A DNA stretch of 64,000 bases from Acidobacteriota bacterium (lineage in GTDB: Bacteria; Acidobacteriota; Blastocatellia; Pyrinomonadales; Pyrinomonadaceae), in NCBI GenBank assembly GCA_019639155.1, contig JAHBSJ010000007.1:62001-126000 (forward strand), written 5' to 3'. The first letter of the stretch is position 1. Each line of letters begins with the position of its first letter. Shown here one piece after another: positions 1,206-31,174 of this stretch. The translations under genes and the position numbers were made by a program. The notes beneath the pieces are model-generated. The model saw only the letters and a program-made list of their open reading frames with translations. It was not told where the DNA came from and made no database searches.

Positions 1206-1542
1206 CTGTTATTTGGTTCGGTTAGATTAGCATAGTCCGGTTCTATTGGCAGAAAGACCCGGAAATCGTAGTGTCGGTGAATATGTCCGAGAAACTTTGC
1301 GGGAGGCCGAGTGTTTGCATTTGATACTAGGATGACTACGCGGACGTTTCCCGCAAAGACGCCAAGGCCGCAATTCAAATACTACAAACACCAAAAACCG
1401 CTTTGGGCCGACGATGCGGCTCGATGTTCAAAGATGACACGGCCATAATTGTTATGTATATTGTATTTCGCACGTTTCCTTTAGTTTCAATGAAGACAGC
1501 CATTTGCTCGCAGGCGAAAAGCTCAGGGCCGTCAAACCGGGA
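1206..1542. other. Intergenic region between divergent genes, with one lone repeat arm
   Basis: No gene is supported in these 337 bases, although a TTG at 1504 is in frame with the downstream permease. They contain a CCGCAAAGACGCCAAGGCCG repeat at about 1347-1371, the same family as the array at 32589-32622. Promoters for the divergent genes are expected here, but I could not pick a convincing -35/-10 pair. Confidence 0.4.
1347..1371. repeat. Single copy of CGCAAAGACGC-type repeat
   Basis: The core CCCGCAAAGACGCCAAGG matches the longer tandem array at 32589-32622, which has CCCGCAAAGACGCAAAGACG. No inverted partner is visible nearby. It may be an orphan arm of the cassette-type repeats described for this window. 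Confidence 0.45.
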
Positions 1543-2622
1543 ATGAAGATCCTCCGCGAAATACTCTGGCCGCTGACCGCAGTCTTTGCGGCGTTCGTCG
1601 TTGGCGGCATTATCGTTGTGGCCATCGGCGACAATCCGTTTCAGACGTATTACCAATTGATCGGGAATTCGTTCGGCTCGATGAACGACACCGGCTACAC
1701 GCTATTCCTAGCGACACCGCTGATATTCACCGGGCTGGCGGTCGCGGTGGCGTTCCGCTGCGGGCTACTGAATATCGGAGCCGAAGGCCAGCTATATGTT
1801 GCGGCGTTCGCGACTGCGTGGGTAGGCATCAAGTTCGGCGGTGCGATGGTAACGGTCTTCGGCAAGGAAGAGAACTGGTCCTGGTTCAGCTTGCCTGCCG
1901 TTCTGCTGGTCGGGCTTTGCGTCTTGACGGCGGTCGCTGCCGGGGCATTTTGGGGTGCGATACCGGGCCTGCTGAAAGCGAAATTCGGCTCGCATGAGGT
2001 GATAAACACCATCATGCTCAATTTCGTCGCGATCGCCCTCGTCAGCTATTTTACGCAATATTATCTCAAGATCCCCGGCGACCCGATCATGCAAACCGCC
2101 GAGATCGGCAAGGCCGCACAGATACCGCGCATCAGCCAATACGTTCCGGGTATGCCGGATTTCGTCCCGCTCAGCGTCGCTTTTCTGCTGGCGATATTGA
2201 TGTGCGTGCTGGTTTATATCTTTCTGTGGAAGACAAAATGGGGCTATGAACTGCGGGCAGTCGGTGAAAATCCGACCGCGGCGGAATACGGCGGCATCTC
2301 GCCGAAAAAGCAGATCGTGATAGCAATGACCATTTCGGGCGGGCTGGCCGGCATGGTCGCCATCGGTGAGGTGCTCGGCTATCGCTATCGCTATTACGAC
2401 GGATTTTCGGACGGCTGGGGCTTTCTCGGCATCGCCGTCGCACTGCTCGGCAGGAATCACCCTCTCGGCATCTTTGTCGCGGCACTCTTTTTCGCTGTGC
2501 TGAAACGCGGCGAGATCTTTGTTGATATCGAGACCAAGTACGTCTCAAAAGATCTGGTCGAGGTACTGCAGGCGATCATCATCATTTTCGTCGCATCACT
2601 GCAGAGGTTCAGCAAGCGGTGA
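1543..2622 (+). CDS. nupP: Nucleoside ABC transporter permease (NupP/YufP-like)
   Basis: This is a 359-residue multi-span inner-membrane protein of the BPD_transp_2 family. The conserved loop FRCGLLNIGAEGQ and the later RAVGENPTAAEYGG are hallmarks of permeases that pair with BMP (Med/BmpA) lipoproteins to import nucleosides. The ATG at 1543 (MKILREILW) is chosen over the TTG at 1504 because it starts just before the first hydrophobic segment. Its partner permease is at 3062; between them sits a repeat-flanked four-helix-bundle gene. The stop codon (2620-2622) lies inside the left repeat array of that cassette. Neither the ATPase nor the binding lipoprotein is in the window. Salvage enzymes downstream (PNP, udk, cdd) support nucleosides as substrate. 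Confidence 0.85.
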   Translation: MKILREILWPLTAVFAAFVVGGIIVVAIGDNPFQTYYQLIGNSFGSMNDTGYTLFLATPLIFTGLAVAVAFRCGLLNIGAEGQLYVAAFATAWVGIKFGGAMVTVFGKEENWSWFSLPAVLLVGLCVLTAVAAGAFWGAIPGLLKAKFGSHEVINTIMLNFVAIALVSYFTQYYLKIPGDPIMQTAEIGKAAQIPRISQYVPGMPDFVPLSVAFLLAILMCVLVYIFLWKTKWGYELRAVGENPTAAEYGGISPKKQIVIAMTISGGLAGMVAIGEVLGYRYRYYDGFSDGWGFLGIAVALLGRNHPLGIFVAALFFAVLKRGEIFVDIETKYVSKDLVEVLQAIIIIFVASLQRFSKR

Positions 2623-3060
2623 AAAGTGAAACGGTGAAAAGGTGAAAAAGGTGGTCGAGCATTTTGAGGACCTGATCATTTGGCAAAAGGCCGTAGAGTT
2701 TGCGAAAGAGATAAATTTGATAACCGAAAATGGCGCAATGAGGACGGATTATGCCTTGAAAAACCAGATGCGAGATGCTGCAGTTTCAATTTCGAGCAAC
2801 ATCGCTGAGGGTTTTGAAAGAAGGTCGCGAAAGGAGTATTTGAATTTTCTCAATATCGCTAAAGCATCTGCCGGAGAAGCGAGGAGCCAGCTATTCGTGG
2901 CATGCGAGGTCGGATATTTATCAAAGGAGGAGCATCAACGGCTGAGGGAAATGGCGAGATTTTTGAGCGGTTCGATCGCGAATCATATGATCTCGATCCA
3001 ACGTTCGGAATCGAAACGCCGGTTCTGACTTTTTCACTCTTTCGCTTTTTCACTTTTCGA
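2618..3060 (+). mobile_element. Repeat-flanked cassette 1 carrying a four-helix-bundle gene
   Basis: The left arm (2618-2650) is a run of GTGAAAAG-type units; the right arm (3029-3060) has the inverse TTTTTCAC units. Aligned as an inverted repeat, 25 of 30 central positions are complementary, and 28 of 30 if G-U pairs count. The left arm contains the stop codon of the upstream permease and the GTG start of the cargo gene. The right arm begins directly after the cargo stop and ends one base before the ATG of the next permease. The cargo points the same way as the operon. That this is a mobile unit is inference from its similarity to the cassettes at 5447 and 23924; no transposase is present. 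Confidence 0.6.
2642..3028 (+). CDS. Four helix bundle protein (23S rRNA intervening-sequence protein family), copy 1
   Basis: A 128-residue helical protein with the family's core pattern: FEDLIIWQKAVEFAKEI, then LKNQMRDAAVSISSNIAEGF, ERRSRKEYLNFLNIAKASAGE and ARSQLFVACEVGYLS. Length is normal for the family. Members were first noticed as ORFs inside intervening sequences of 23S rRNA genes and share a fold with the Avd accessory protein of diversity-generating retroelements; the biochemical function is not established. The start is a GTG formed by the GTGAAAAAG repeat itself, so the repeat supplies the start codon. It splits two permease genes that would normally be adjacent. A second, clearly different paralogue is at 5506. 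Confidence 0.85.
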   Translation: MKKVVEHFEDLIIWQKAVEFAKEINLITENGAMRTDYALKNQMRDAAVSISSNIAEGFERRSRKEYLNFLNIAKASAGEARSQLFVACEVGYLSKEEHQRLREMARFLSGSIANHMISIQRSESKRRF

Positions 3061-3061
3061 T

Positions 3062-3982
3062 ATGTCTGATGTATTGACACCAACATTCCTCCTGATCCTG
3101 ATTTTTTCCACCATCCGCGGAGCGACGCCGCTTATCTTTGCGGCGCTCGGCGGGATGTTTTCGGAACGCGCGGGCGTGATCAACATCGCGCTTGAGGGAC
3201 TGATGCTCGCGGGTGCATTTACGGCGGCGGTCGTCACGTATGAGCTGCAGAATCCGTACATCGGTTTTGTCGCGGGAATGGCGGTCGGTGCGGTCGTGGC
3301 GCTGGTGTTTGCGGTCGCCGTTATCAAGTTCGAGGCGGATCAGGTCGTTACGGGATTCGCGATAAGTTTGCTGATGCTGGGGCTGCCGGCAGTGGTCTCC
3401 AGCCGTATCTATGATTCGGCGGGTTCGACGCAGCAGATCGCGAAAGAGTTCCTCCTGCCCGAATTTTGGAACCGATTGCCGCTCGCAGCGATACTGGCAT
3501 TCGCGCTCGTTCCCATCTGTTGGTACGTGCTTTACAAGACGCCGTTCGGATTGCGAATTCGTGCGGTAGGCGAAAACCCCGAGGCCGCCGACGCTGCGGG
3601 CGTCAATGTCATTAAGCTGCGTTATTCGGCCGTCATCATCTCGGGAATACTCGCCGCTGCGGGCGGTGCGTATCTTTCGATCGGCCAGTCGTCGCTTTTC
3701 ACACGCGGCATGACGGCGGGCCGCGGCTATATCGCACTTGCGGCGCTGATACTCGCAAAATGGCGTCCTTTCCCTGTACTCTTTGCGTGTCTTTTCTTCG
3801 GATTTACAGAAGCTCTCGCAACCAACCTGCAGGGAGTTTACAAATTGCCGTCGGGCGAGGACGTGCCCGTGCAATTCATCCAAATGATCCCGTACGTGCT
3901 GACGATAATCGTGCTCGCCGGCTTTATCGGCCTCAGCCGCGCACCGAAAGCACTCGGCACGCCGTATCGTAAGGAAAGCTGA
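3062..3982 (+). CDS. nupQ: Nucleoside ABC transporter permease (NupQ/YufQ-like)
   Basis: A 306-residue multi-span permease and second half of the nucleoside importer. It has GVINIALEGLMLAGAF near the N terminus, the family's counterpart of the 'NIGAEGQ' loop, and RAVGENPEAADAAGVNV in the cytoplasmic coupling loop. The ATG at 3062 directly abuts the right repeat arm of cassette 1, so the normal leader of this gene has been replaced by repeat sequence and no clear Shine-Dalgarno is visible. With the permease at 1543 it should form the membrane channel; ATPase and lipoprotein components must be encoded elsewhere. Confidence 0.85.
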   Translation: MSDVLTPTFLLILIFSTIRGATPLIFAALGGMFSERAGVINIALEGLMLAGAFTAAVVTYELQNPYIGFVAGMAVGAVVALVFAVAVIKFEADQVVTGFAISLLMLGLPAVVSSRIYDSAGSTQQIAKEFLLPEFWNRLPLAAILAFALVPICWYVLYKTPFGLRIRAVGENPEAADAAGVNVIKLRYSAVIISGILAAAGGAYLSIGQSSLFTRGMTAGRGYIALAALILAKWRPFPVLFACLFFGFTEALATNLQGVYKLPSGEDVPVQFIQMIPYVLTIIVLAGFIGLSRAPKALGTPYRKES

Positions 3983-4024
3983 CATTTCTGTCGGCGATCC
4001 ATCGAATTGATGTAGAATTGAGCT

Positions 4025-4261
4025 ATGCTTACGTCGCTTGAAACCACAGCTACCGTCGGACCGAACAGGCAGCTTTTGCTTGATGATGACCTGCCGGCGG
4101 ACGTTTCGAAAAAGGTGCGCGTCATTGTGATGTTTGACGAGGATATTGACGAGAGAAAATGGCTTGCGTCCGCGCGAGACAACGATGCGTTTGAGTTTCT
4201 CAACGATGACGCAGAGGATATTTATACGCTTAACGACGGAAAGCCGATAGATGAAGCATAA
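4025..4261 (+). CDS. Putative antitoxin of a MazF/PemK-type pair
   Basis: A small acidic 78-residue protein (MLTSLETTATVGPNRQLLLD at the N terminus) directly upstream of, and overlapping by 11 nt with, a PemK/MazF-like gene. The N terminus resembles prevent-host-death or AbrB-like small antitoxins only loosely, so the antitoxin call rests mainly on the overlap and gene order. A TAGAAT hexamer ends six bases before the ATG, which would give a nearly leaderless transcript if it is a -10 box. It lies between nupQ and the purine nucleoside phosphorylase gene, inside the salvage operon. Confidence 0.6.
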   Translation: MLTSLETTATVGPNRQLLLDDDLPADVSKKVRVIVMFDEDIDERKWLASARDNDAFEFLNDDAEDIYTLNDGKPIDEA

Positions 4262-4589
4262 GATCGTTTTGGTCCCGTTCCCGTTTGACGATCTTTCAAC
4301 GGCTAAAGTTCGTCCCGCCGTTTGCATTACGAACGAGATCGAGCCTTACGGACATATCGTCGTCGCATTCATAACAAGCCGCGTCTCCGGCGAGCCTTCC
4401 GCGACCGACCTGAATATCGAGACAACTGATCCGCATTTCGAGGAAACAGGGCTAAAAGTGTCGTCAGCTGTAAGGCTGCACAGGCTGATGACGATCTCCA
4501 GAAGTTTGATAAAGCGGGAACTTGGCAAACTTGCCGATCCTCACATCGTTGCGGTCGAGGAGCGGCTGCGGAAACTATTCGAGATCTGA
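4251..4589 (+). CDS. MazF/PemK-family endoribonuclease toxin
   Basis: A 112-residue protein with the MazF/PemK signature at the N terminus, IVLVPFPFDDLSTAKVRPAV, followed by FITSRVSGEPSATDL and later SSAVRLHRLMTISRSLI. Known relatives are sequence-specific mRNA interferases neutralised by the upstream gene product. Length and domain are intact, so it is probably functional. The start overlaps the end of the antitoxin-like gene by 11 nt, suggesting translational coupling, and it ends 5 nt before the PNP start, so it is likely read as part of the nucleoside operon. The specific RNA target cannot be told from sequence. Confidence 0.8.
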   Translation: MKHKIVLVPFPFDDLSTAKVRPAVCITNEIEPYGHIVVAFITSRVSGEPSATDLNIETTDPHFEETGLKVSSAVRLHRLMTISRSLIKRELGKLADPHIVAVEERLRKLFEI

Positions 4590-4594
4590 TAGAG

Positions 4595-5449
4595 ATGTCA
4601 TACGAAAATGCGGCGCGTGCCGCTGATTACATAAGAAGCAAATACGCGGGCGATGTCGAAACGGCGGTCGTGCTCGGCAGTGGACTCGGTGCGTTTGCCG
4701 AGACGGTGGAGAACCCCGTGCGGATACCGTACGAAGATATTCCGGGTTTTGCGCGTTCGACCGTCCATGGCCATGCCGGGCAGCTTGTGCTGGGCGTGAT
4801 CGGCGGTGTCGGCGTCGCGGTGCAGCAGGGGCGATTTCATTATTACGAAGGCTGCGAGATGCAGCAGGTAATGCTGCCTGTCCGCACATTCGGCGTGCTC
4901 GGCGCGAAACGCATAATTCTGACCAACGCCGCCGGCAGCCTGAACACGGATATGCCGCCGGGCTCGCTGATGCTCATTACGGATCATCTGAACATGATGG
5001 GTGTGAATCCGCTTCGCGGACCGAATGACGACCGTCTGGGGCCGCGATTTCCGGATATGACGGAGGTTTACGACCGCGAGATGCAGTCCGCGGCGGAAAA
5101 AGCCGCTACTGATATATCGCGTGAACGTCACGAGAGCGGCCGCGACGCGGAATTACAGGATATCCTGCATCGCGGCACCTATTGCGCACTTTCGGGCCCG
5201 ACGTATGAAACGCCCGCTGAGATACGGCTTTATCGCAAGCTCGGTGCCGATGCCGTCGGTATGTCCACCGTACCCGAGGCAATAGCCGCACGCCACATGG
5301 GCCTGCGAGTGCTCGGCATCTCGTGCATTACGAATTTCGGCGCAGGAATGAGCGGACAAAATATCGACCACGAAGAGGTGATGGAAACCGGCGCACGGGT
5401 CGCGGAGTTTTTCGGCGAGCTGCTGCTGCGAATCATTACAAATAGCTAG
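4595..5449 (+). CDS. punA: Purine nucleoside phosphorylase
   Basis: A 284-residue member of the trimeric PNP/MTAP family. VVLGSGLGAFAE (phosphate loop), STVHGHAGQLVLG (catalytic-site His), HYYEGCEMQQV, ILTNAAGSLN, ALSGPTYETPAEI and VGMSTVPEAIAARHMGL are all present and in order. It splits inosine or guanosine with phosphate into base and ribose-1-phosphate in the cytoplasm. The Asn in ISCITNFGAG favours 6-oxopurine specificity over MTA. The ATG is 5 nt after the toxin stop. The stop codon TAG runs straight into the left repeat array of cassette 2. It works downstream of the nucleoside permeases and beside uridine kinase and cytidine deaminase. Confidence 0.9.
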   Translation: MSYENAARAADYIRSKYAGDVETAVVLGSGLGAFAETVENPVRIPYEDIPGFARSTVHGHAGQLVLGVIGGVGVAVQQGRFHYYEGCEMQQVMLPVRTFGVLGAKRIILTNAAGSLNTDMPPGSLMLITDHLNMMGVNPLRGPNDDRLGPRFPDMTEVYDREMQSAAEKAATDISRERHESGRDAELQDILHRGTYCALSGPTYETPAEIRLYRKLGADAVGMSTVPEAIAARHMGLRVLGISCITNFGAGMSGQNIDHEEVMETGARVAEFFGELLLRIITNS

Positions 5450-5929
5450 TCATTTGTCATTGGTCATTTGTCATTTGGGTCCAGGCATCCGATCTATTCA
5501 AAAGTATGGCAAGGACACGGTTCGAAAGTTTGCGAGTTTACCGGCTATCTGAGGAACTTTCCGACGCGCTATGGGAGATCGTTGGTAAATGGGACAGTTT
5601 TTCAAAAGACACTTTGGGTAAGCAGATCGTTCGTTCCGCAGATTCTATTGGTGCAAATTTAGCTGAGGGCGAAGGAAGGGGAAGTTATCAGGACAATCGC
5701 CGGTTCATAAAAATTGCGCGAGGCTCCCTGCAGGAAACCCAACACTGGTTGCGGCGGGCTTATAAACGTAACCTACTAAAACAGGAACAGGTTGAAAAGA
5801 TCAAGCCGTTAATTGACACTCTTGCTCCGACATTGAATGCTTATTTACGATCAATCGGAACAAGAAAGAGCGATCAGCGGAACGGCGATCAGCTAACAAA
5901 GGACTAGAGACCAAAGACCAAGGACCAAA
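5447..5929 (+). mobile_element. Repeat-flanked cassette 2 carrying a four-helix-bundle gene
   Basis: The left arm (about 5447-5478) is four heptamers of the GTCATTT type, starting in the PNP stop codon. The right arm (about 5896-5929) has the inverse form, AAAGACCAAGGACCAAA, and ends 5 nt before the udk ATG. Read as an inverted repeat, the heptamer registers align and about two thirds of positions pair. The repeat sequence is unrelated to that of cassettes 1 and 3, but the architecture is the same. The cargo is again co-directional with the operon. Confidence 0.55.
5506..5907 (+). CDS. Four helix bundle protein (23S rRNA intervening-sequence protein family), copy 2
   Basis: A 133-residue helical protein with the family pattern FESLRVYRLSEELSDALW, LGKQIVRSADSIGANLAEGE, GRGSYQDNRRFIKIARGSL and QETQHWLRRAYKRNLL. 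It belongs to the same family as the protein at 2642 but to a different subgroup, so the two were probably acquired separately rather than copied within this operon. The stop codon sits inside the right repeat arm, and the last residues (GDQLTKD) are encoded at the edge of the repeat. Function is not established for the family. It lies between punA and udk in the salvage operon. Confidence 0.85.
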   Translation: MARTRFESLRVYRLSEELSDALWEIVGKWDSFSKDTLGKQIVRSADSIGANLAEGEGRGSYQDNRRFIKIARGSLQETQHWLRRAYKRNLLKQEQVEKIKPLIDTLAPTLNAYLRSIGTRKSDQRNGDQLTKD

Positions 5930-5934
5930 TTTTA

Positions 5935-6567
5935 ATGTTCATAGGCATTTGCGGCGGGACAGGATCAGGAAAGACGACCATTGCGCGAAAGCTGGTCGAA
6001 TCGGTCGGCGCGGAAAACGTCGTGCTGGTCGAGCAGGATTCGTATTATCGAAATCTCGCTGACATGCCGCTCGACGAACGCCACCGTGCGAATTTCGACC
6101 ATCCGGACGCCATCGACAGCGACATGCTGGTCAATCATTTGCTGCGTTTGAAGCAGGGTCTGGTCGTCGAGATGCCGCTCTACGATTTCAAAACGCACAC
6201 CCGCAGCGACCGCATAGAGATCATCGAACCGAAACAGGTCGTCATCGTCGAAGGGATCTTGATATTTGCTGAAGCTCGTGTGCTCGACCTGCTGGACGTC
6301 CGCGTATTTGTGGATACGCCGGACGACATTCGATTCATACGCCGCCTGCGTCGAGATATAGCCGAACGCGGCCGTACAACGGAATCCGTGATCGAACAGT
6401 ATTTCGCGTCGGTTCGCCCGATGCATTTCGAATTCGTCGAACCGTCGAAACGCCACGCCGACATCATCATTCCCGAAGGCTCGCAGACCGGCGTGACCGT
6501 TGAACTGCTCTGCGGCCTGGTCCGCGAACGGCTGGCGGCACAGACAGCCGCAGGAGCATCTGAATAG
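5935..6567 (+). CDS. udk: Uridine kinase
   Basis: A 210-residue P-loop kinase. The Walker A motif GGTGSGKTT is at residues 7-15; EQDSYYRNLADMPLDERHRANFDHPDAID and MPLYDFKTHTR are typical uridine/cytidine-binding segments; VVIVEGILIF and FVDTPDDIRFIRRLRRDIAERGR complete the family pattern. It phosphorylates uridine and cytidine to UMP and CMP with ATP or GTP. Length is normal. The ATG lies 5 nt after the right repeat array of cassette 2, whose AAGGA may serve as the ribosome binding site. It is followed 8 nt later by cytidine deaminase. Confidence 0.93.
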   Translation: MFIGICGGTGSGKTTIARKLVESVGAENVVLVEQDSYYRNLADMPLDERHRANFDHPDAIDSDMLVNHLLRLKQGLVVEMPLYDFKTHTRSDRIEIIEPKQVVIVEGILIFAEARVLDLLDVRVFVDTPDDIRFIRRLRRDIAERGRTTESVIEQYFASVRPMHFEFVEPSKRHADIIIPEGSQTGVTVELLCGLVRERLAAQTAAGASE

Positions 6568-6575
6568 TTTTACAA

Positions 6576-6974
6576 ATGCATCACACTGAAGAAGAACTGA
6601 TCAAGGCCGCAGCGGACGCACGCGAACGCGCGTATGCGCCGTATTCCAATTTTCGTGTCGGTGCCGCCGTCGAGGCAGAGAACGGCGATATCTATATCGG
6701 CTGCAATGTCGAATCCGCCAGCTACGGCCTGACCGTCTGCGCCGAACGTGTCGCCATCTGGAAAGGCATCTCTTGCGGCGAAAAACGCTTTACACGCATC
6801 GCCGTCGTCGTCGATACCGAAGAACTCACACCGCCATGCGGCGTCTGCCGCCAGATCATCTGGGAATTCTGCGGCGACGTGCCGGTCATACTCTCAAACC
6901 TCCACGGCAAGACCGAAACCATCCAAATGAGTGAACTCCTACCGCGTGCATTCGATTCTAAGTTTTTGAAGTAA
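6576..6974 (+). CDS. cdd: Cytidine deaminase
   Basis: A 132-residue homotetrameric-type cytidine deaminase. Zinc-site residues are C55 and the catalytic E57 in TVCAERVAIW and C88/C91 in PPCGVCRQIIWEF. YAPYSNFRVGAAV and GCNVESASYGLTVC bind the nucleoside. It deaminates cytidine and deoxycytidine to uridine forms, feeding the same pool that udk phosphorylates. Start 8 nt after udk; the two are almost certainly co-transcribed. No anomalies seen. Confidence 0.95.
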   Translation: MHHTEEELIKAAADARERAYAPYSNFRVGAAVEAENGDIYIGCNVESASYGLTVCAERVAIWKGISCGEKRFTRIAVVVDTEELTPPCGVCRQIIWEFCGDVPVILSNLHGKTETIQMSELLPRAFDSKFLK

Positions 6975-6983
6975 AATAGAAGC

Positions 6984-7902
6984 ATGGCTCTTCCGACTTA
7001 CCAAACAGCAATGCTTCCTTTACTTAGGTTTGCATCTGATGGACAGGAACACTCGTTACGAGAGGCGACCTCAGCTGTAGCAGATGCCTTCCATCTCACT
7101 GAGGAAGAAAGATCACAATTGCTCCCAAGCGGCCGAAAACCTGTAATTGATGATCGTGTCGCTTGGGCTCGCGTGTATATGGGGCAAGCGGGTCTGCTTG
7201 AATCAACTCGCCGGGGGGTTCTTCCGAATATCGCCACGCGGATTGGATCTGCTTGCGTCGAACCCACAGACGGTGAACGATGAAACTTTGAAACAGTATC
7301 CCGAGTTTGTCGATTTCATCTCTAGAAAAGCGAAAAAGAAGATTCAAGAGAACCCAGAAACTGAAATCCCTTCTCAAGTCGACAGCACGCCGGAAGAGTC
7401 TCTGGAGGATTCATATAGATCAATTCGAAATCGGCTTGCTGTCGAGTTATTGGAACAAATAAAAAGTTGTTCGCCGGCATTCTTTGAACGGTTAGTTGTC
7501 CAGTTGCTCGTAGCGATGGGATATGGGGGCACACGGGAAGACGCTGGAGAGGCAATTGGCAAAAGCGGCGATGGTGGGATCGACGGAATAATCAAAGAAG
7601 ATCGGCTTGGTCTTGATGTGATCTACCTGCAGGCTAAAAGATGGGAAGGAAATGTAAGCCGACCTGAGATTCAGAAGTTTGCCGGGGCTCTGCAAGGACG
7701 AAGGGCGAAAAAAGGCGTGTTCATTACCACGTCCGAGTTCAGTAAAGAGGCCCGAGAGTTTGCCTCGGCCATCGACAACAAGATCATACTAATCGATGGG
7801 AATGAGCTTGCTGAATACATGATAGATTTCAATGTAGGAGTCGCCGTCGAATCGGTTTATGAGATAAAACGTATTGATTCTGATTATTTCATCGAAGAAT
7901 GA
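6984..7902 (+). pseudogene. mrr: Mrr-type restriction endonuclease, frameshifted at a G6 tract
   Basis: Two overlapping frames make one protein. The first (6984 on) encodes the Mrr N-terminal winged-helix domain: QTAMLPLLRFASDGQEHSLR, LTEEERSQLLPSGRKPVIDD and AGLLESTRRG. The second (to 7902) continues with FFRISPRGLDLLA and the catalytic domain, GKSGDGGIDGII and LDVIYLQAKRW, holding the D...QxK nuclease residues, then GVFITTSEFSKEA. The shift falls at six G residues (7213-7218); five would restore one frame reading RRGFFRISPRG. Relatives cut methylated DNA. It may be a true pseudogene, a phase-variable gene or a homopolymer sequencing error. A TAAAAT box ends six bases before the ATG, suggesting its own near-leaderless promoter. 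Confidence 0.8.
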
Positions 7903-11216: not shown

Positions 11217-11356
11217 AATTCACCACAGAGGACACAGAGAGCACAGAGAATTGTGAAAACGGGTCGGGTGCACCGTGAAGACGGTAAGCTATTCAGCCTC
11301 TGATCCTTACTAAAAAACTTACCTCCGTGTTCTCTGTGCCCTCTGTGGTTAACCAT
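11217..11356. repeat. CACAGAG-type inverted repeat pair without cargo
   Basis: The left arm (about 11217-11250) carries ACCACAGAGGACACAGAGAG; the right arm (about 11323-11356) carries the inverse, TTCTCTGTGCCCTCTGTGGT. More than 20 of 24 positions are complementary. The 72 nt between hold no ORF. The same repeat bounds the GxxExxY cassette at 23924-24361. The right arm ends 6 nt before the ATG of the M1 aminopeptidase and creates a spurious in-frame GTG at 11327. Confidence 0.7.
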
Positions 11357-11362
11357 CTGCTT

Positions 11363-14300
11363 ATGGCCTTACGACTGTTGATCTTAGTATTGCTGCTTGC
11401 CGGTATGACACATTCTCAAACGCCGCCGATCGAGCCCGGGGTTTCGCTTGAGCTCGCTAAATGGCGAGCCGCGCATTACAGCGACATCCGCTACAAACTG
11501 AACCTGACGCTGGAAAAAATGTCGCCGGTGCTAAAGGGGACGATCGAGATACGGGTCAAAGTGTCAGAACCGCCTGCGTCAGCGGGCGGCCAGAAAGCCG
11601 GCGGCCCCGTCCCGCCGATCATACTGGACTGGCGTCGCATTAAGGGGCATGAGGAAAAGTCAACGATCTCTAACGTCAGCTTGAACGGCGTTGCGTTGAG
11701 TGTATCGCCCTTGCTTACGCGCGGGCTTCCGCAACCTGCTGCTCAAGTTGAAGACCAAGATGCAGAAGCCCGCGCGTCAGCAAGGGCGATAGCGGACCGC
11801 AGCTATGAGGAATACAACGAGCACCTCATATTCACCGACGGCGTCGTCCAGGGCGAGAATGTGATCCGGATGGATTTCACGTCGCCAATACTCACCAGCG
11901 GTTCGGCGATCACGCGGTATATCGACAAAGAGGACGGTTCGGAATACATCTACTCGCTCTTCGTCCCGTCCGACGCCAGCACGGCGTTCCCGGTATTTGA
12001 CCAGCCGGATCTGAAGGCGAGGTTTCTTCTGAATATCAGGAGACCTGCATCGTGGAAGAAATGCGTAGCCATCTCGAATGCTCCCGCTCTCGCAGTAAAT
12101 TTCACCGACGGTTGGGAAGCAACTGAGTTTGTGGAAACTAAACCAATCAGTTCTTACGTTTTCGCATTTGCTGTGGGCGATTTTGCGCAGTTTCGCCAAC
12201 TTGAATCCGGAGAAGCCATTTACTATGACGAGGTCGTAGCAAAGACTTTCAACGGGCGAGAGTATTTTATTGGTGATGAAGTTGAAAAGCGGCTTGGTAC
12301 GCTCCGGCGGGATAGAGTCTACGTCCGCCGCTCTCAGGCACGGAAGTTCCAACCCCACGCGGCGGAGGTGTTTCGGCTTAACCGCGAGGCCATCAAGTAT
12401 TTCGAGGAGTATTTCAATTACAAGTTCCCGTTCCCGAAGTACGATCTGGTTTTGATCCCCGAGTTTCCGTTTGGCGGGATGGAGCATGCCGGGGCGACGT
12501 TCCTGCGGGAATCGGCGATCATCTTTCCGCAGGAGCCGACGAGGAACGACCATATTTCGCGGGCTCTGCTGATCTTTCACGAGGCGTCGCACCAATGGTT
12601 CGGCGACACGGTGACGATGCGTTGGTTCGACGACCTGTGGCTAAAGGAAGGCTTTGCGACCTTTACGGCGTACAAGGCGATGGAGCGGATCATGCCGGAG
12701 ATGATGGCGTGGAAGGTCTTCTACGAACGCGTCAAACAGGCCGCTTATCAGACCGATTCGACCAAAGGCACAACGCCGATCTATCAGGAGATACCGAACC
12801 TATCCGCCGCAAAATCCGCCTACGGCAACATCGTCTATAACAAAGCCCCCGCGTTCCTCCGCCAAGCAGAGTTTTATTTAGGCGAGGACAAATTCCAAAC
12901 CGCCGTCCGCGCGTTTTTGAAGAAGCATGAGTTTGGGAATGCGGGCTGGGAAGATCTGGTTGCAGAGTTTGAGGCAGCGAGTGAAGAACGGCTAAAGTCT
13001 TGGGCAGAAGTCTGGATCAATCAGAAAGGCGTACCCCTTTATCAAACCAAGGTCGACACGACGGGTCGCCTCGTCAGCGCACTTATCGAGCAGACACAGG
13101 TTCCCGATCAATCCTATTGGTTGCAGCGGGTAGAAGTTCTGGGATTAGGCAACGTACAGGGTAAACCCGGCAGACATAAAGTGCTCGACCTGTTGAGGAG
13201 TCCGCCGGTCGGATCAGAATTCAAAGTGCTTCCCACATTTCAGTTTTCGGCAACGGATTTCGTATTCCCCAACTCCGGCGACTACGGCTACGGCATTTTC
13301 CTTCTCGACGACAAGAGCCGCGACTATGTTCTCAAGAACATCCAGAACGAAAAGGACCCGTTCTTGCGGTCGATGATGTGGGGAGCCTTGTGGGACAGCG
13401 TCCGCGAGGGCGAGCTCGACCCGCGGGAGTTTGTTGAGTTGGCGATAAAGCAGCTCGGCGGTTCAGGTTCAGAGTTGCGGCTTCAGCCGCGAGAAAACCT
13501 CACGCCTAAAGGCGTAACTCTGAACGGGAACGAAACCGACGAGACCATCGTCGCCCTGCTCGTCAGCCGAGTATCGACGGCGTTGAATTACTACATGTCA
13601 GAACCGCCTGCGGTAGCGGGCGGTTTAACGCGGAGTACCAATAACTCAGCGGAACCGCAGCAGGCATCGACTAATCGCACCTTGTCCAAGGCGAACGGTC
13701 AACCACCCGCTACCGCAGGTGGTTCTGACCTGCGTTCGCGGTTTGAGGCGGTTTTGCTCGACCGTATGCGAAATGCAACGACAGCGGGCGAGCGGATCAC
13801 GTTCTATCGAGCGTTCCTGAACAACGCTTCGAGCGAGAACGCTAGGAATGTGCTAAAAACGATGCTGTCAGAACCGCCTGCGTCAGCTGGCGGCAAAGGC
13901 GAAAAGACATCGCCAACGTCGAATTCTGCTCCGACGCGGTCGAATTCCGCGGCCTCATTGCCCGCCGCTGACGCAGCGGGTTCTGACAGGGCCCGCATCG
14001 ACCTGCCGCTGCGAACGAAGGACAAATTCGACATCATCACACGCCTGCTCATATTGGGCGACGCGGACGCGCCGAGGCTGTTAGCAGAATTGGAAAGGAC
14101 CGAGACGAGCGACGATGCGAAGCGCTACGCTTACGCGGCTCGGGCCGGGATCGCGACCGCCGAGAACAAGGTGAAGTATTGGAAGGATTTTACGGAGAAC
14201 AAAGAAATATCGGAAAGCTGGATACAGGCGGCGTTCGGGCCGTTCAATTCCATCAGGCATTCGGAGCTGACGCTGCCTTATCTCGAACGCGCGCTAAAAG

Positions 14301-20400: not shown

Positions 20401-20645
20401 ATATCCGGAAGGTCTTGTCGCCAACGGCGACAAATTCTAAAGCCTAGGGTGGAGCCAATTTTTGGCGGAACCCTAGGTCTAGAAGACACCCCGAATTTCC
20501 GCTCCCTGAAGGGGAGTAGTCTTTTCGGCATTGGGTTGTTCGTCGCCTTCAGCGACAGGCCATTTGATACTGAACTTTCCTAGGGTTTCGTTCGCAATGC
20601 CTCACTACACCCTAGGCTTTAATATTCGTCGCCGTTGGCGACCAG
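20401..20645. repeat. Composite palindromic (REP/BIME-like) array
   Basis: Several inverted units lie in tandem: TTGTCGCCAACGGCGACAA near 20415-20433, AAGCCTAGGGT mirrored by ACCCTAGGT, TCGTCGCCTTCAGCGACA, then CCTAGGGTTTCG mirrored by ACACCCTAGGCTT, and a closing GTCGCCGTTGGCGAC. Outer and inner units are inversions of each other, as in bacterial interspersed mosaic elements. No ORF is present. It fills the gap between sufC and the next gene. Confidence 0.75.
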
Positions 20646-20648
20646 AAC

Positions 20649-22779: not shown

Positions 22780-23925
22780 ATGACATCAGCAACGATGGAA
22801 ACCCTTTTTGGACAATGTTTTAGGGACAGTATCGTGTCGGAAACGGACGCGATGGTAAAGGCTCTGCGAGAGGAAGCGTTCTCGTATTACGCGGCGACCG
22901 GTTTTCCGACCGTAAGGGACGAGGACTGGAAATATACCAACGTCGCCGAGATCGCCAAGGGCGAGTGGCCGTGCACGCAGATGCGCACAAGCCTGCCGGA
23001 CGATGATCCGCGGCCGCGTGTGATGCTGGAGAATTTCCGTTTCGGGCGAAACGGTTTTACGGCGCTGAATCTGGCGTTCGCCGATATTTCGGTCGTCGTC
23101 ATTCCGCGCGAGACGAGCGTCGCGGAGCCGATCGAACTCGACCTTTCGGCCGCAGAGGGCGAGATGGCGTCGCCGCATGTGATCGTCATAGCCGAAGCGG
23201 GCAGCAAAGCAACGATCGTCGAAACATACAGAAGCGGCGGCCGCGGGCTGATGAATTCGGCGGTGCAGATCGTCGTTGAGGAGAACGCGAATCTAACGCA
23301 TTACCGAGTGCAAAGGGACGCGGCCGACGCCTATAACTACGGCGTGACGGAAGTAACGGTCGGCCCGGCGGCGCGTTATGACCTGACGAGCGTCAATCTC
23401 GGCGGGGCCATTTCGCGGCACGACATCGACGCAAAGCTCATCGCAGAGGGCGGCGAAATTTGGGTGGACGGGCTATATATGCTGTCCGGCTCGCAGCATC
23501 ACGATACGCATTCCAGCATCGACCACACAGTGCCAAACTGTAATTCGCATCAGACATACAAAGGCGTGCTGAACGATAGCTCGCGGGGCGTTTTCAACGG
23601 AAAGGTCTTTGTCCGCGAAAACGCCAGCGGCACTGACGCTCAACAGCAGAACAAGAACCTACTGCTGTCGAACGATGCCCGCGTCGATACGAAACCTCAG
23701 CTTGAGATCTTCAACGACGACGTAAAATGCTCGCACGGAGCGACCGTAGGCCAGCTCGAGGACGAGGAACTATTCTATCTGCTAACCCGCGGCCTGCCCG
23801 AGACGCTCGCCCGCAATCTGCTGACGTACGGCTTTGCCGAAGAGATCATCAACAAGATCGAGATCGAGTCGATCAAGAGCGAATTAGATTCGATGGTGCT
23901 GAACCGGCTGGGGACGGAAATTTAA
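22780..23925 (+). CDS. sufD: Fe-S cluster assembly protein SufD
   Basis: A 381-residue SufB/SufD family protein. TGFPTVRDEDWKYTNVAEIA is the typical SufD N-terminal motif, and the C-terminal part has GLYMLSGSQHHDTHSSIDHT, SHQTYKGVLNDSSRGVFNGK, DTKPQLEIFNDDVKCSHGAT and EELFYLLTRGLP, the characteristic SufD core, including the conserved His and Cys that face SufB. It completes the SufBC2D scaffold. Its TAA stop runs directly into the left CACAGAG repeat arm of the GxxExxY cassette. Confidence 0.95.
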   Translation: MTSATMETLFGQCFRDSIVSETDAMVKALREEAFSYYAATGFPTVRDEDWKYTNVAEIAKGEWPCTQMRTSLPDDDPRPRVMLENFRFGRNGFTALNLAFADISVVVIPRETSVAEPIELDLSAAEGEMASPHVIVIAEAGSKATIVETYRSGGRGLMNSAVQIVVEENANLTHYRVQRDAADAYNYGVTEVTVGPAARYDLTSVNLGGAISRHDIDAKLIAEGGEIWVDGLYMLSGSQHHDTHSSIDHTVPNCNSHQTYKGVLNDSSRGVFNGKVFVRENASGTDAQQQNKNLLLSNDARVDTKPQLEIFNDDVKCSHGATVGQLEDEELFYLLTRGLPETLARNLLTYGFAEEIINKIEIESIKSELDSMVLNRLGTEI

Positions 23926-24361
23926 CCACAGAGGACACAGAGAGCACAGAGGGTAGGAAATGGAGTTGAACTCAGTTACCGAAGCGATTATCGGCGCGGC
24001 GATCGAGGTTCACAAAGCACTTGGCCCCGGACTCCTTGAAAGTACTTATGAGGTTTGTTTGCTGCACGAACTTGGAAAACGAGGCCTGAAAGTCGAAAAG
24101 CAGGTGCCCATTCCTGTTGTGTACGACACGGTCACGCTGGATGCAGGATACCGAATAGACTTCTTGTAGAGGATGAGGTGATCGTAGAGCTGAAGGCGGT
24201 CGATACGCTGCATCCGATCCATGAGGCGCAGCTGATCTCTTATTTGAAATTGAGCGATAAAACTGTCGGTTTGCTCATAAATTTTAACGTTAGGCTTCTA
24301 AAGAACGGCATCAAGAGGATCGCTAATTGAAACCCTCTGTGTGCTCTGTGCCCTCTGTGGT
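23924..24361 (+). mobile_element. Repeat-flanked cassette 3 carrying a GxxExxY gene
   Basis: The left arm (23924-23954), core CCACAGAGGACACAGAGAGC, begins in the sufD stop codon. The right arm (24332-24361), core CTCTGTGCCCTCTGTGG, begins just after the cargo stop and ends 11 nt before the sufS ATG. About 28 of 31 positions are complementary, the best pairing of the three cassettes. The same repeat family forms the cargo-less pair at 11217-11356. The cargo is co-directional with the SUF operon. Confidence 0.7.
23960..24330 (+). pseudogene. GxxExxY protein (PD-(D/E)XK nuclease-like), frameshifted
   Basis: Two frames together encode a full-length protein of about 122 residues: [40 protein letters not shown] (the GxxExxY motif), [17 protein letters not shown], then in the second frame [20 protein letters not shown] and AQLISYLKLSDKTVGLLINF. 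The D...ExK pattern (RIDFL ... VELKA) is the nuclease-like core. The first frame stops at TAG 24167-24169; loss of one base near 24163-24166 explains it. Family members have no settled function. It may be a recent pseudogene or an assembly error; a -1 ribosomal shift at TTCTTG is possible but the site is not a classical slippery heptamer. Confidence 0.8.
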
Positions 24362-24372
24362 GAACAAATTTT

Positions 24373-30438: not shown

Positions 30439-31038
30439 ATGAGCGAAACACAGGAGAACAAGAAAGGATTCTTTTCTGAGGTCGGGCATATTCCGATCGT
30501 GGCGACCATCGTAATATTTATCGCAACGGGTATAACGCTCGCAGTGATGGGCCGCGTGATCTGGTGCAAAGAGGGCGACCTCATGCCATGGTCGTGGGAC
30601 ATCTGGACGACGCACAATTCGCAGCACCTCGTCGATCCGTATGCGTTCACACACGTCCTGCACGGCATCCTCGAATTCTGGCTCATCGGCCTCGTCTTCT
30701 ATTTTCTGCCGCTCGGCTGGCGTTTTTCGCTCGCCATTCTGATCGAAAGCATTTGGGAGGTCGCCGAAAATTCGCCTGCGATCATCGAGCGATACCGCAC
30801 CGTTACGCTGTCGCTCGACTATTTCGGAGATTCGGTAGCGAATTCGCTTGCCGACATTGTCGCCTGCGCGCTCGGGTTTTGGATCGCTTTCAAGATAGGT
30901 TTCGTCCGCTCGCTTTTGCTTTTCCTCGCAACCGAAGCTTTCCTGATCGCGTGGATCCGCGACAGCCTGATCCTCAATATAATTATGCTGCTATATCCGC
31001 TGGAAGCGATAAAAGCGTGGCAGATGAGCGGACAGTGA
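30439..31038 (+). CDS. DUF2585 (UPF0314-like) membrane protein
   Basis: A 199-residue protein with about four to five transmembrane segments. GRVIWCKEGDLMPWSWDIWT, THNSQHLVDPYAFTHVLHGI, LPLGWRFSLAILIESIWEVA, ENSPAIIERYRTVTLSLDYF and GDSVANSLADIVACALGFW match the DUF2585/UPF0314 family closely. The ATG at 30439 is preferred over the frame's earlier start because it leads into the first cytoplasmic segment. Function of the family is unknown; the conserved His, Asp and Glu residues facing the loops suggest a membrane enzyme. It is divergent from glpD. Confidence 0.8.
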   Translation: MSETQENKKGFFSEVGHIPIVATIVIFIATGITLAVMGRVIWCKEGDLMPWSWDIWTTHNSQHLVDPYAFTHVLHGILEFWLIGLVFYFLPLGWRFSLAILIESIWEVAENSPAIIERYRTVTLSLDYFGDSVANSLADIVACALGFWIAFKIGFVRSLLLFLATEAFLIAWIRDSLILNIIMLLYPLEAIKAWQMSGQ

Positions 31039-31040
31039 TT

Positions 31041-31174
31041 CCCGCTAAACACGCGAAAAACACGAAGGAGTAGCGTGAATAATTAGCCGGATCCGATCGG
31101 AGTTCAAAACAAGCAAAAAAGGCACGAGCAGAGAAGCGGTCTCTTTTCGTGCCTTTCGCTTGTTTCGCGGGAAT
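31041..31174. repeat. Nested inverted repeats between convergent genes (terminator-like)
   Basis: An outer pair, TTCCCGCTAAACACGCGAAA (about 31041) against TTGTTTCGCGGGAA (to 31174), surrounds a strong hairpin. In it AAGGCACGAGCAGAGA (about 31118-31133) pairs with TCTCTTTTCGTGCCTT (about 31141-31156) and the stem extends through AAACAAGC/GCTTGTTT. It lies between the DUF2585 gene and the convergent GrdB-like gene, so it could terminate both. The outer repeat resembles the cassette arms but holds no gene. Confidence 0.65.

Follow-up and report, generated by a model that had tools for sequence, protein, structure and literature searches.

An S23p gene between inverted repeat arms at the nupP-nupQ joint: a probable mobile cassette of the intervening-sequence type in a protein operon

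The window analysed here is a stretch of 64,000 nucleotides (nt) from an Acidobacteriota bacterium (assembly GCA_019639155.1, contig JAHBSJ010000007.1, positions 62,001 to 126,000 of the forward strand). Its element of interest, cassette 1 (2619-3061 of the window), lies between two transporter (permease) genes, nupP and nupQ, and consists of an S23p gene enclosed by inverted repeat arms. The parts of the locus are as follows.

1504..2622, + strand: upstream host gene, BPD_transp_2 permease (nupP-like), with its TGA stop codon (2620-2622) within the first repeat; the start codon is uncertain
2619..2650, + strand: left arm, a degenerate GTGAAAAG tandem array of period 8
2642..3028, + strand: S23p (four-helix-bundle) gene (PF05635, E-value: 2.2e-32; TIGR02436, 99.8 bits), with a GTG start at either 2642 or 2651
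3029..3058, + strand: right arm, the reverse complement of the left array, in CTTTTTCAC units
3062..3982, + strand: downstream host gene, BPD_transp_2 permease (nupQ-like)

The families PF05635 and TIGR02436 bear the names 'S23p' and '23S rRNA IVP', and the S23p cassette family is until now known mainly in the form of the 'intervening sequences' (IVSs) of ribosomal RNA (rRNA). Solved homologues of the cassette 1 protein in the PDB are XCC0516 (2gsc) and 2rld. The nearest named relatives of the S23p genes described here are Pyrinomonadaceae (Acidobacteriota). XCC0516 is described as a pentamer (PMC4990558).

The left arm at 2621-2650 (GAAAAGTGAAACGGTGAAAAGGTGAAAAAG) and the right arm at 3029-3058, compared as reverse complements, match at 25 of 30 positions; once the three G-U compatible pairs among the five mismatches are counted in, the figure is 28 of 30. 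The inverted arms that a first-pass annotation had placed at 2618-3060, with these same counts, are therefore real. They also pair in the minimum-energy RNA fold (2620-2650 with 3029-3059), where the arm duplex has a predicted energy of -35.8 kcal/mol and the stability of the whole segment is ordinary (z -0.86). GTGAAAAG occurs eight times in the window (2.5 expected), and an Rfam search of positions 1400-7000 gave no match. It had further been proposed that the insertion rebuilt both gene ends from repeat DNA. This is borne out for the nupP stop codon, which lies inside the first repeat as stated, but for nothing more: NupP aligns with its relatives through its last residue (372), and the nupQ ATG (3062), although at most 3 nt past the end of the right arm that was said to touch it, is not repeat sequence. 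The placement of the cargo's GTG within the repeat is correct for the candidate at 2642 and not for that at 2651.

S23p genes are present in 41/41 genomes of the genus and in many phyla, and no function has been assigned to them. The genome that contains the window (the own genome) has 12 PF05635 genes above the family cut-off and one weak match. At 10 of its 13 loci the left arm is best matched by its own right arm, which ranks second at one more, and own-arm pairing averages 34, as against 16.7 (standard deviation 2.6) for mispaired arms. Within the genus, an arm score of at least 28 is reached by 100/122 S23p (PF05635) genes and by 0/93 control open reading frames (ORFs). Across homologue loci from about 13 phyla, 53 of 80 score at least 30, and at 57 of the 80 the own arm falls in the top 5% of the 80 possible partners. 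Of the 47 arms in which a period could be measured, 41 repeat every 7 nt and four every 8 nt; cassette 1 is in the second group. Low-complexity sequence that happens to surround an ordinary gene, or arrays formed independently by slippage, would be compatible with arms that are short tandem repeats and whose copy number differs between orthologs. Such an origin is nevertheless almost certainly wrong, because both the control ORFs and the mispaired arms refute chance pairing, and arm identity is 0.87 in register but 0.66 when slid by one period. One S23p gene outside this pattern (L012) has both matching arrays (AACTTTTAACT / AGTTAAAAGT) upstream and is possibly a rearranged or split cassette.

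The nupP-nupQ joint was compared across 30 nupQ loci of the genus. An empty site was found in 27 of them, where the two genes abut or overlap (spacing of -16 to about +2 nt), in agreement with the earlier statement that these homologues are normally neighbours. Two loci (the own genome and G016) hold the four-helix-bundle cassette, and in the last the position is taken by a 148-nt hairpin that has no ORF and is built of another repeat (CCGCAGAGACACCGAGACGCAGAG). The possibility of an old, stable operon member, carried by all relatives without the repeats, is contradicted by these counts: the gene occurs at 2/30 loci and has GTGAAAA-type arms at both. Judged from this comparison, cassette 1 is an insertion between nupP and nupQ. 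On the nupP-nupQ tree the two carriers do not group as sisters, which implies either one gain and several losses or two gains, and the S23p tree lacks the support to choose between them.

Two further joints were surveyed at 30 loci each. The pnp-udk joint holds an S23p cassette in 4/30 and a bare 4-nt overlap in 6/30, with short hairpins in many others. The dnaJ-hspR joint holds an S23p cassette in 8/30 and is bare in 6/30, with ORF-less hairpins in others. Two of these hairpins (L374 and L379) have S23p-type words (GTTGCGA; AAGTCTGGG) and are likely deletion derivatives of S23p cassettes.

Comparison of the arms shows a repeat word of 7-8 nt that is particular to each lineage. The clade of the cassette 1 gene (66-78% identical) has GTGAAAAAG arms at five unrelated joints, namely nupP-nupQ, isoaspartyl peptidase-cinA, pcm-dedA, speA-next gene and PH-domain gene-rfbB (gene names assigned by inspecting translations). 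The words GGGAAGTCT, GAGACGGGAGAC, GAAATGAGAAGTGAGA and GTTGAGTTC behave in a like manner. Between non-homologous sites, arm words never match when the proteins are less than 60% identical; they match in 12% of cases at 60-70% identity, in 35% at 70-80% and in 3/3 above 80%. Because words are alike at unrelated sites only among proteins more than 60% identical, the word arrives with the element rather than being taken from the target.

The cassettes also show a preference for particular sites. Between two co-directional genes lie 68 of 97 clear-armed cassettes; in 51 of these 68, other intergenic DNA amounts to no more than 20 nt, and 30 of the 68 have the upstream stop codon inside the first repeat. 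Tight joints make up about 1-2% of the intergenic bases in the window. This preference fits a choice made per joint and not per base, whether by targeting or by selection. Comparison among loci shows the putative mobile unit to be the left array, the S23p gene and the right array together, and shows the site preference and the concerted change of the arms likewise.

That concerted change is seen in orthologous cassette groups, where the arm match within a genome beats the match across genomes in 17 groups versus 5 (p=0.0024). Matched double changes in the two arms number 32 versus about 4 expected (the pairs are not fully independent), and at one joint the word has drifted from AGAAGACAG through AGAATTCAG to AAAATCAAAA with both arms in step. 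The arms are thus concerted within genomes, so pairing is being actively maintained or copied anew. The S23p genes themselves have a ratio of nonsynonymous to synonymous substitution rates (dN/dS) of 0.06-0.105 in unsaturated pairs. Such strong purifying selection implies that S23p is of use, whether to the host or to the element.

These observations bear on the alternative of a domesticated operon regulator, in which an old gene with a regulatory hairpin is retained because it benefits the host operon, S23p perhaps binding the stem to adjust nupQ expression, and movement is rare or ancient. Purifying selection, maintained arm pairing and persistent ortholog groups with as many as 9 members are all as expected of a regulator. 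A conserved regulatory role is difficult to reconcile, however, with patchy presence even in close relatives, and with host operons that are functionally unrelated, one clade occupying five joints. This explanation is considered unlikely.

Cassette 1 is instead probably a mobile cassette of the 23S rRNA IVS type, situated in a protein operon rather than in rRNA. A possible course of events at the RNA level is the following. The cassette would have no promoter of its own and would be co-transcribed with the operon. In the RNA, the two arms would pair over about 29 bp, and the resulting stem would isolate the S23p message and may be open to cutting by an RNase that acts on double strands (RNase III), so that nupP and nupQ could still be expressed. 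Pentameric S23p may bind the arms or the stem and thereby aid the persistence or copying of the element. The enzyme responsible for movement is not encoded in the cassette.

Several points weigh against the IVS-type model. No cassette was seen in rRNA: the 23S gene of the own genome is full-length (model positions 1-2925) with no large insert, and none of the S23p loci examined lies inside 23S. Neither a movement enzyme nor a target duplication at nupP-nupQ, pnp-udk or dnaJ-hspR was found, although the soft ends of the arrays could hide a duplication. Neighbouring genes were called by simple ORF rules, and some calls are wrong, that of the window's own cassette included. The long stay of intact ORFs at orthologous joints points to slow movement or to a benefit for the host, which a purely selfish element would not require. 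The RNA processing, as well as the role of S23p, is a part of the model that we infer. Lastly, the ratio of G-U-type to A-C-type mismatches is 72:81 for the wide set, 58:34 for the genus and 33:22 for the arms of GxxExxY genes (see below), with no consistent G-U excess. These mismatch types, contradictory between sets, do not settle whether selection acts on RNA or on DNA.

Arm mismatches free of a consistent G-U bias are what a DNA-level element of a new kind would show. In such an element, S23p or a recombinase of the host would recognise the arms as DNA ends, in the form of a cruciform or of single-stranded heptad arrays, and any pairing in the RNA would be a by-product. A word that travels with its gene and the existence of ORF-less derivatives are in keeping with this. 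On the other hand, the strong sense orientation in operons and the precedent of rRNA IVSs processed by RNase III both fit a role in RNA, and S23p has no known catalytic fold. A DNA-level element is a possibility of some weight but a rather doubtful one.

The enzyme that moves the cassettes might also act in trans. REP-associated tyrosine (RAYT, or Y1) transposases, named for repetitive extragenic palindromes (REPs), are present in 41/41 genomes of the genus, and Y1 and S23p copy numbers are correlated (Spearman 0.55), partly through genome size. Most of the Y1 genes sampled, however, have REP palindromes (GCCGTGGG..CCCACGG) at their sides and none has heptad arrays, and the cassette arms are tandem arrays lacking REP/RAYT marks. 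Mobilisation by RAYT is improbable and was rejected. A second candidate was an element related to diversity-generating retroelements (DGRs) or other retroelements, S23p being a distant relative of Avd and the cassette being copied from RNA by a reverse transcriptase. S23p does match Avd weakly (NF033474, E-value: 2.9e-4, 21 of the 80 bits of the cut-off). The own genome, however, has no RVT_1 match, and RVT_1 genes are also absent from 33/41 congeners, all of them S23p carriers; such an origin is very improbable and was likewise rejected.

The window holds a second S23p cassette, in which the right arm is the weaker match.

5447..5477, + strand: left arm of cassette 2 (TAGTCATTTGTCATTGGTCATTTGTCATTTG), holding the purine-nucleoside phosphorylase stop codon (5447-5449)
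5506..5907, + strand: second S23p gene, between pnp and udk (PF05635, E-value: 6.4e-29)
5899..5930, + strand: right arm of cassette 2 (GGACTAGAGACCAAAGACCAAGGACCAAA)

Between nupQ and pnp (4025-4589), a small gene precedes a PemK/MazF-like toxin gene (PF02452, E-value: 2.9e-14), and the two are likely a toxin-antitoxin pair.

A sister class of cassettes is formed around GxxExxY/PDDEXK_3 (PF13366) genes, of which the own genome has seven. Inverted repeat arms flank 25 of 30 tested GxxExxY genes, with words of the 8-9 nt class (CACAGAG, CGCAGAG, CACAGAT and ACAGGAT). The same words make up most of the ORF-less hairpins at nupP-nupQ, pnp-udk and dnaJ-hspR. GxxExxY cassettes thus share with S23p cassettes the inverted short-repeat arms and the presence, at operon joints, of hairpins that have the same words but no ORF. 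They differ in their 8-9-nt words, their nuclease-fold (PD-(D/E)XK) protein and, in this sample, a distinct vocabulary. In the open-licence literature, GxxExxY was found in no more than two papers. The window has one such locus, in which the upstream stop codon is again inside the arm.

23922..24364, + strand: frameshifted GxxExxY-like gene between CACAGAG arms (23922-23954 / 24332-24364) at a sufD-/sufS-like joint; host and cargo genes named by inspecting translations

ORF-less hairpins with array-like arms also occur at 11219-11352 (CACAGAGGACACAGAG) and 31038-31174 (AAACACGCGAAAAACACGAA), with loops of 74 and 79 nt, respectively. At 13594-13732, 13865-13989 and 20413-20646 there are paired REP-like palindromes of the type found on either side of RAYT genes in this genus.

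More broadly, and more tentatively, these cassettes may belong to a pan-bacterial class of minimal mobile elements that has gone unrecognised, in which a small, non-enzymatic, pentameric S23p lies between inverted arrays of a freely evolving, arm-matched heptad word and the unit settles at the stop/start joints of operons. The rRNA IVSs, the heptamers of Xanthomonas, the GxxExxY genes and the solo hairpins would then be facets of one class. S23p genes and rRNA IVSs would both be tied to a single cassette, readable by its word-matched heptad arms, and their origin, movement and function would become directly testable. The cassettes also offer an explanation for orphan heptameric repeats and show a way to insert genes into operons without breakage. 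No report of S23p with repeats outside rRNA was found in the open-licence literature.

Several known systems resemble these cassettes in part. Classical insertion sequences and miniature inverted-repeat transposable elements are marked by conserved terminal inverted repeats with a target-site duplication; the cassettes have inverted ends that differ from lineage to lineage. REP/RAYT elements and REPINs are likewise small and intergenic with inverted ends, and are present in many copies in the same genomes; they rely on a Y1 transposase and conserved palindromes, whereas the cassettes have S23p and free-form tandem words. The Avd protein of DGRs belongs to a homologous four-helix-bundle fold family (according to the weak NCBIfam match), but the cassettes lack a reverse transcriptase and template/variable repeats. 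A link to the TAACTGA heptamers of Beggiatoaceae, which are direct repeats with a single inverted case and no mention of S23p (PMC4679880), is not claimed. The GGGAATC heptamers of Xanthomonas, published as orphan G-quadruplex repeats, form 70-75 inverted pairs per genome according to passages of PMC4692102 that mention no gene between them. They are of the same word class as S23p arms in the bacterial family of one Lysobacterales record (G041; L338-L366), which have GGGAATC/GGGACTC-type heptads.

The closest likeness is to the 23S IVSs of Coxiella burnetii and Leptospira (PMC4990558). The Coxiella IVS has an S23p ORF, a 28-bp terminal stem and, just before the ORF, three tandem GACAGAT heptamers whose number depends on the strain; RNase III excises this IVS, and how rRNA IVSs arose is still described as unclear (PMC4990558). 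Common to both systems are a loop that holds an S23p (PF05635) ORF, inverted repeats at the ends (about 28 bp in the IVSs; paired in the predicted fold of cassette 1), short tandem repeats of varying number beside the ORF (heptameric in Coxiella, of period 8 in cassette 1), a patchy distribution and horizontal acquisition. Known IVSs, however, lie in 23S rRNA helices, and cutting by RNase III is established for them only, whereas the present cassettes lie in protein-operon joints, many per genome, with a separate repeat word for each lineage. Because it lies between two protein genes, cassette 1 is best described as IVS-like and not as a 23S IVS.
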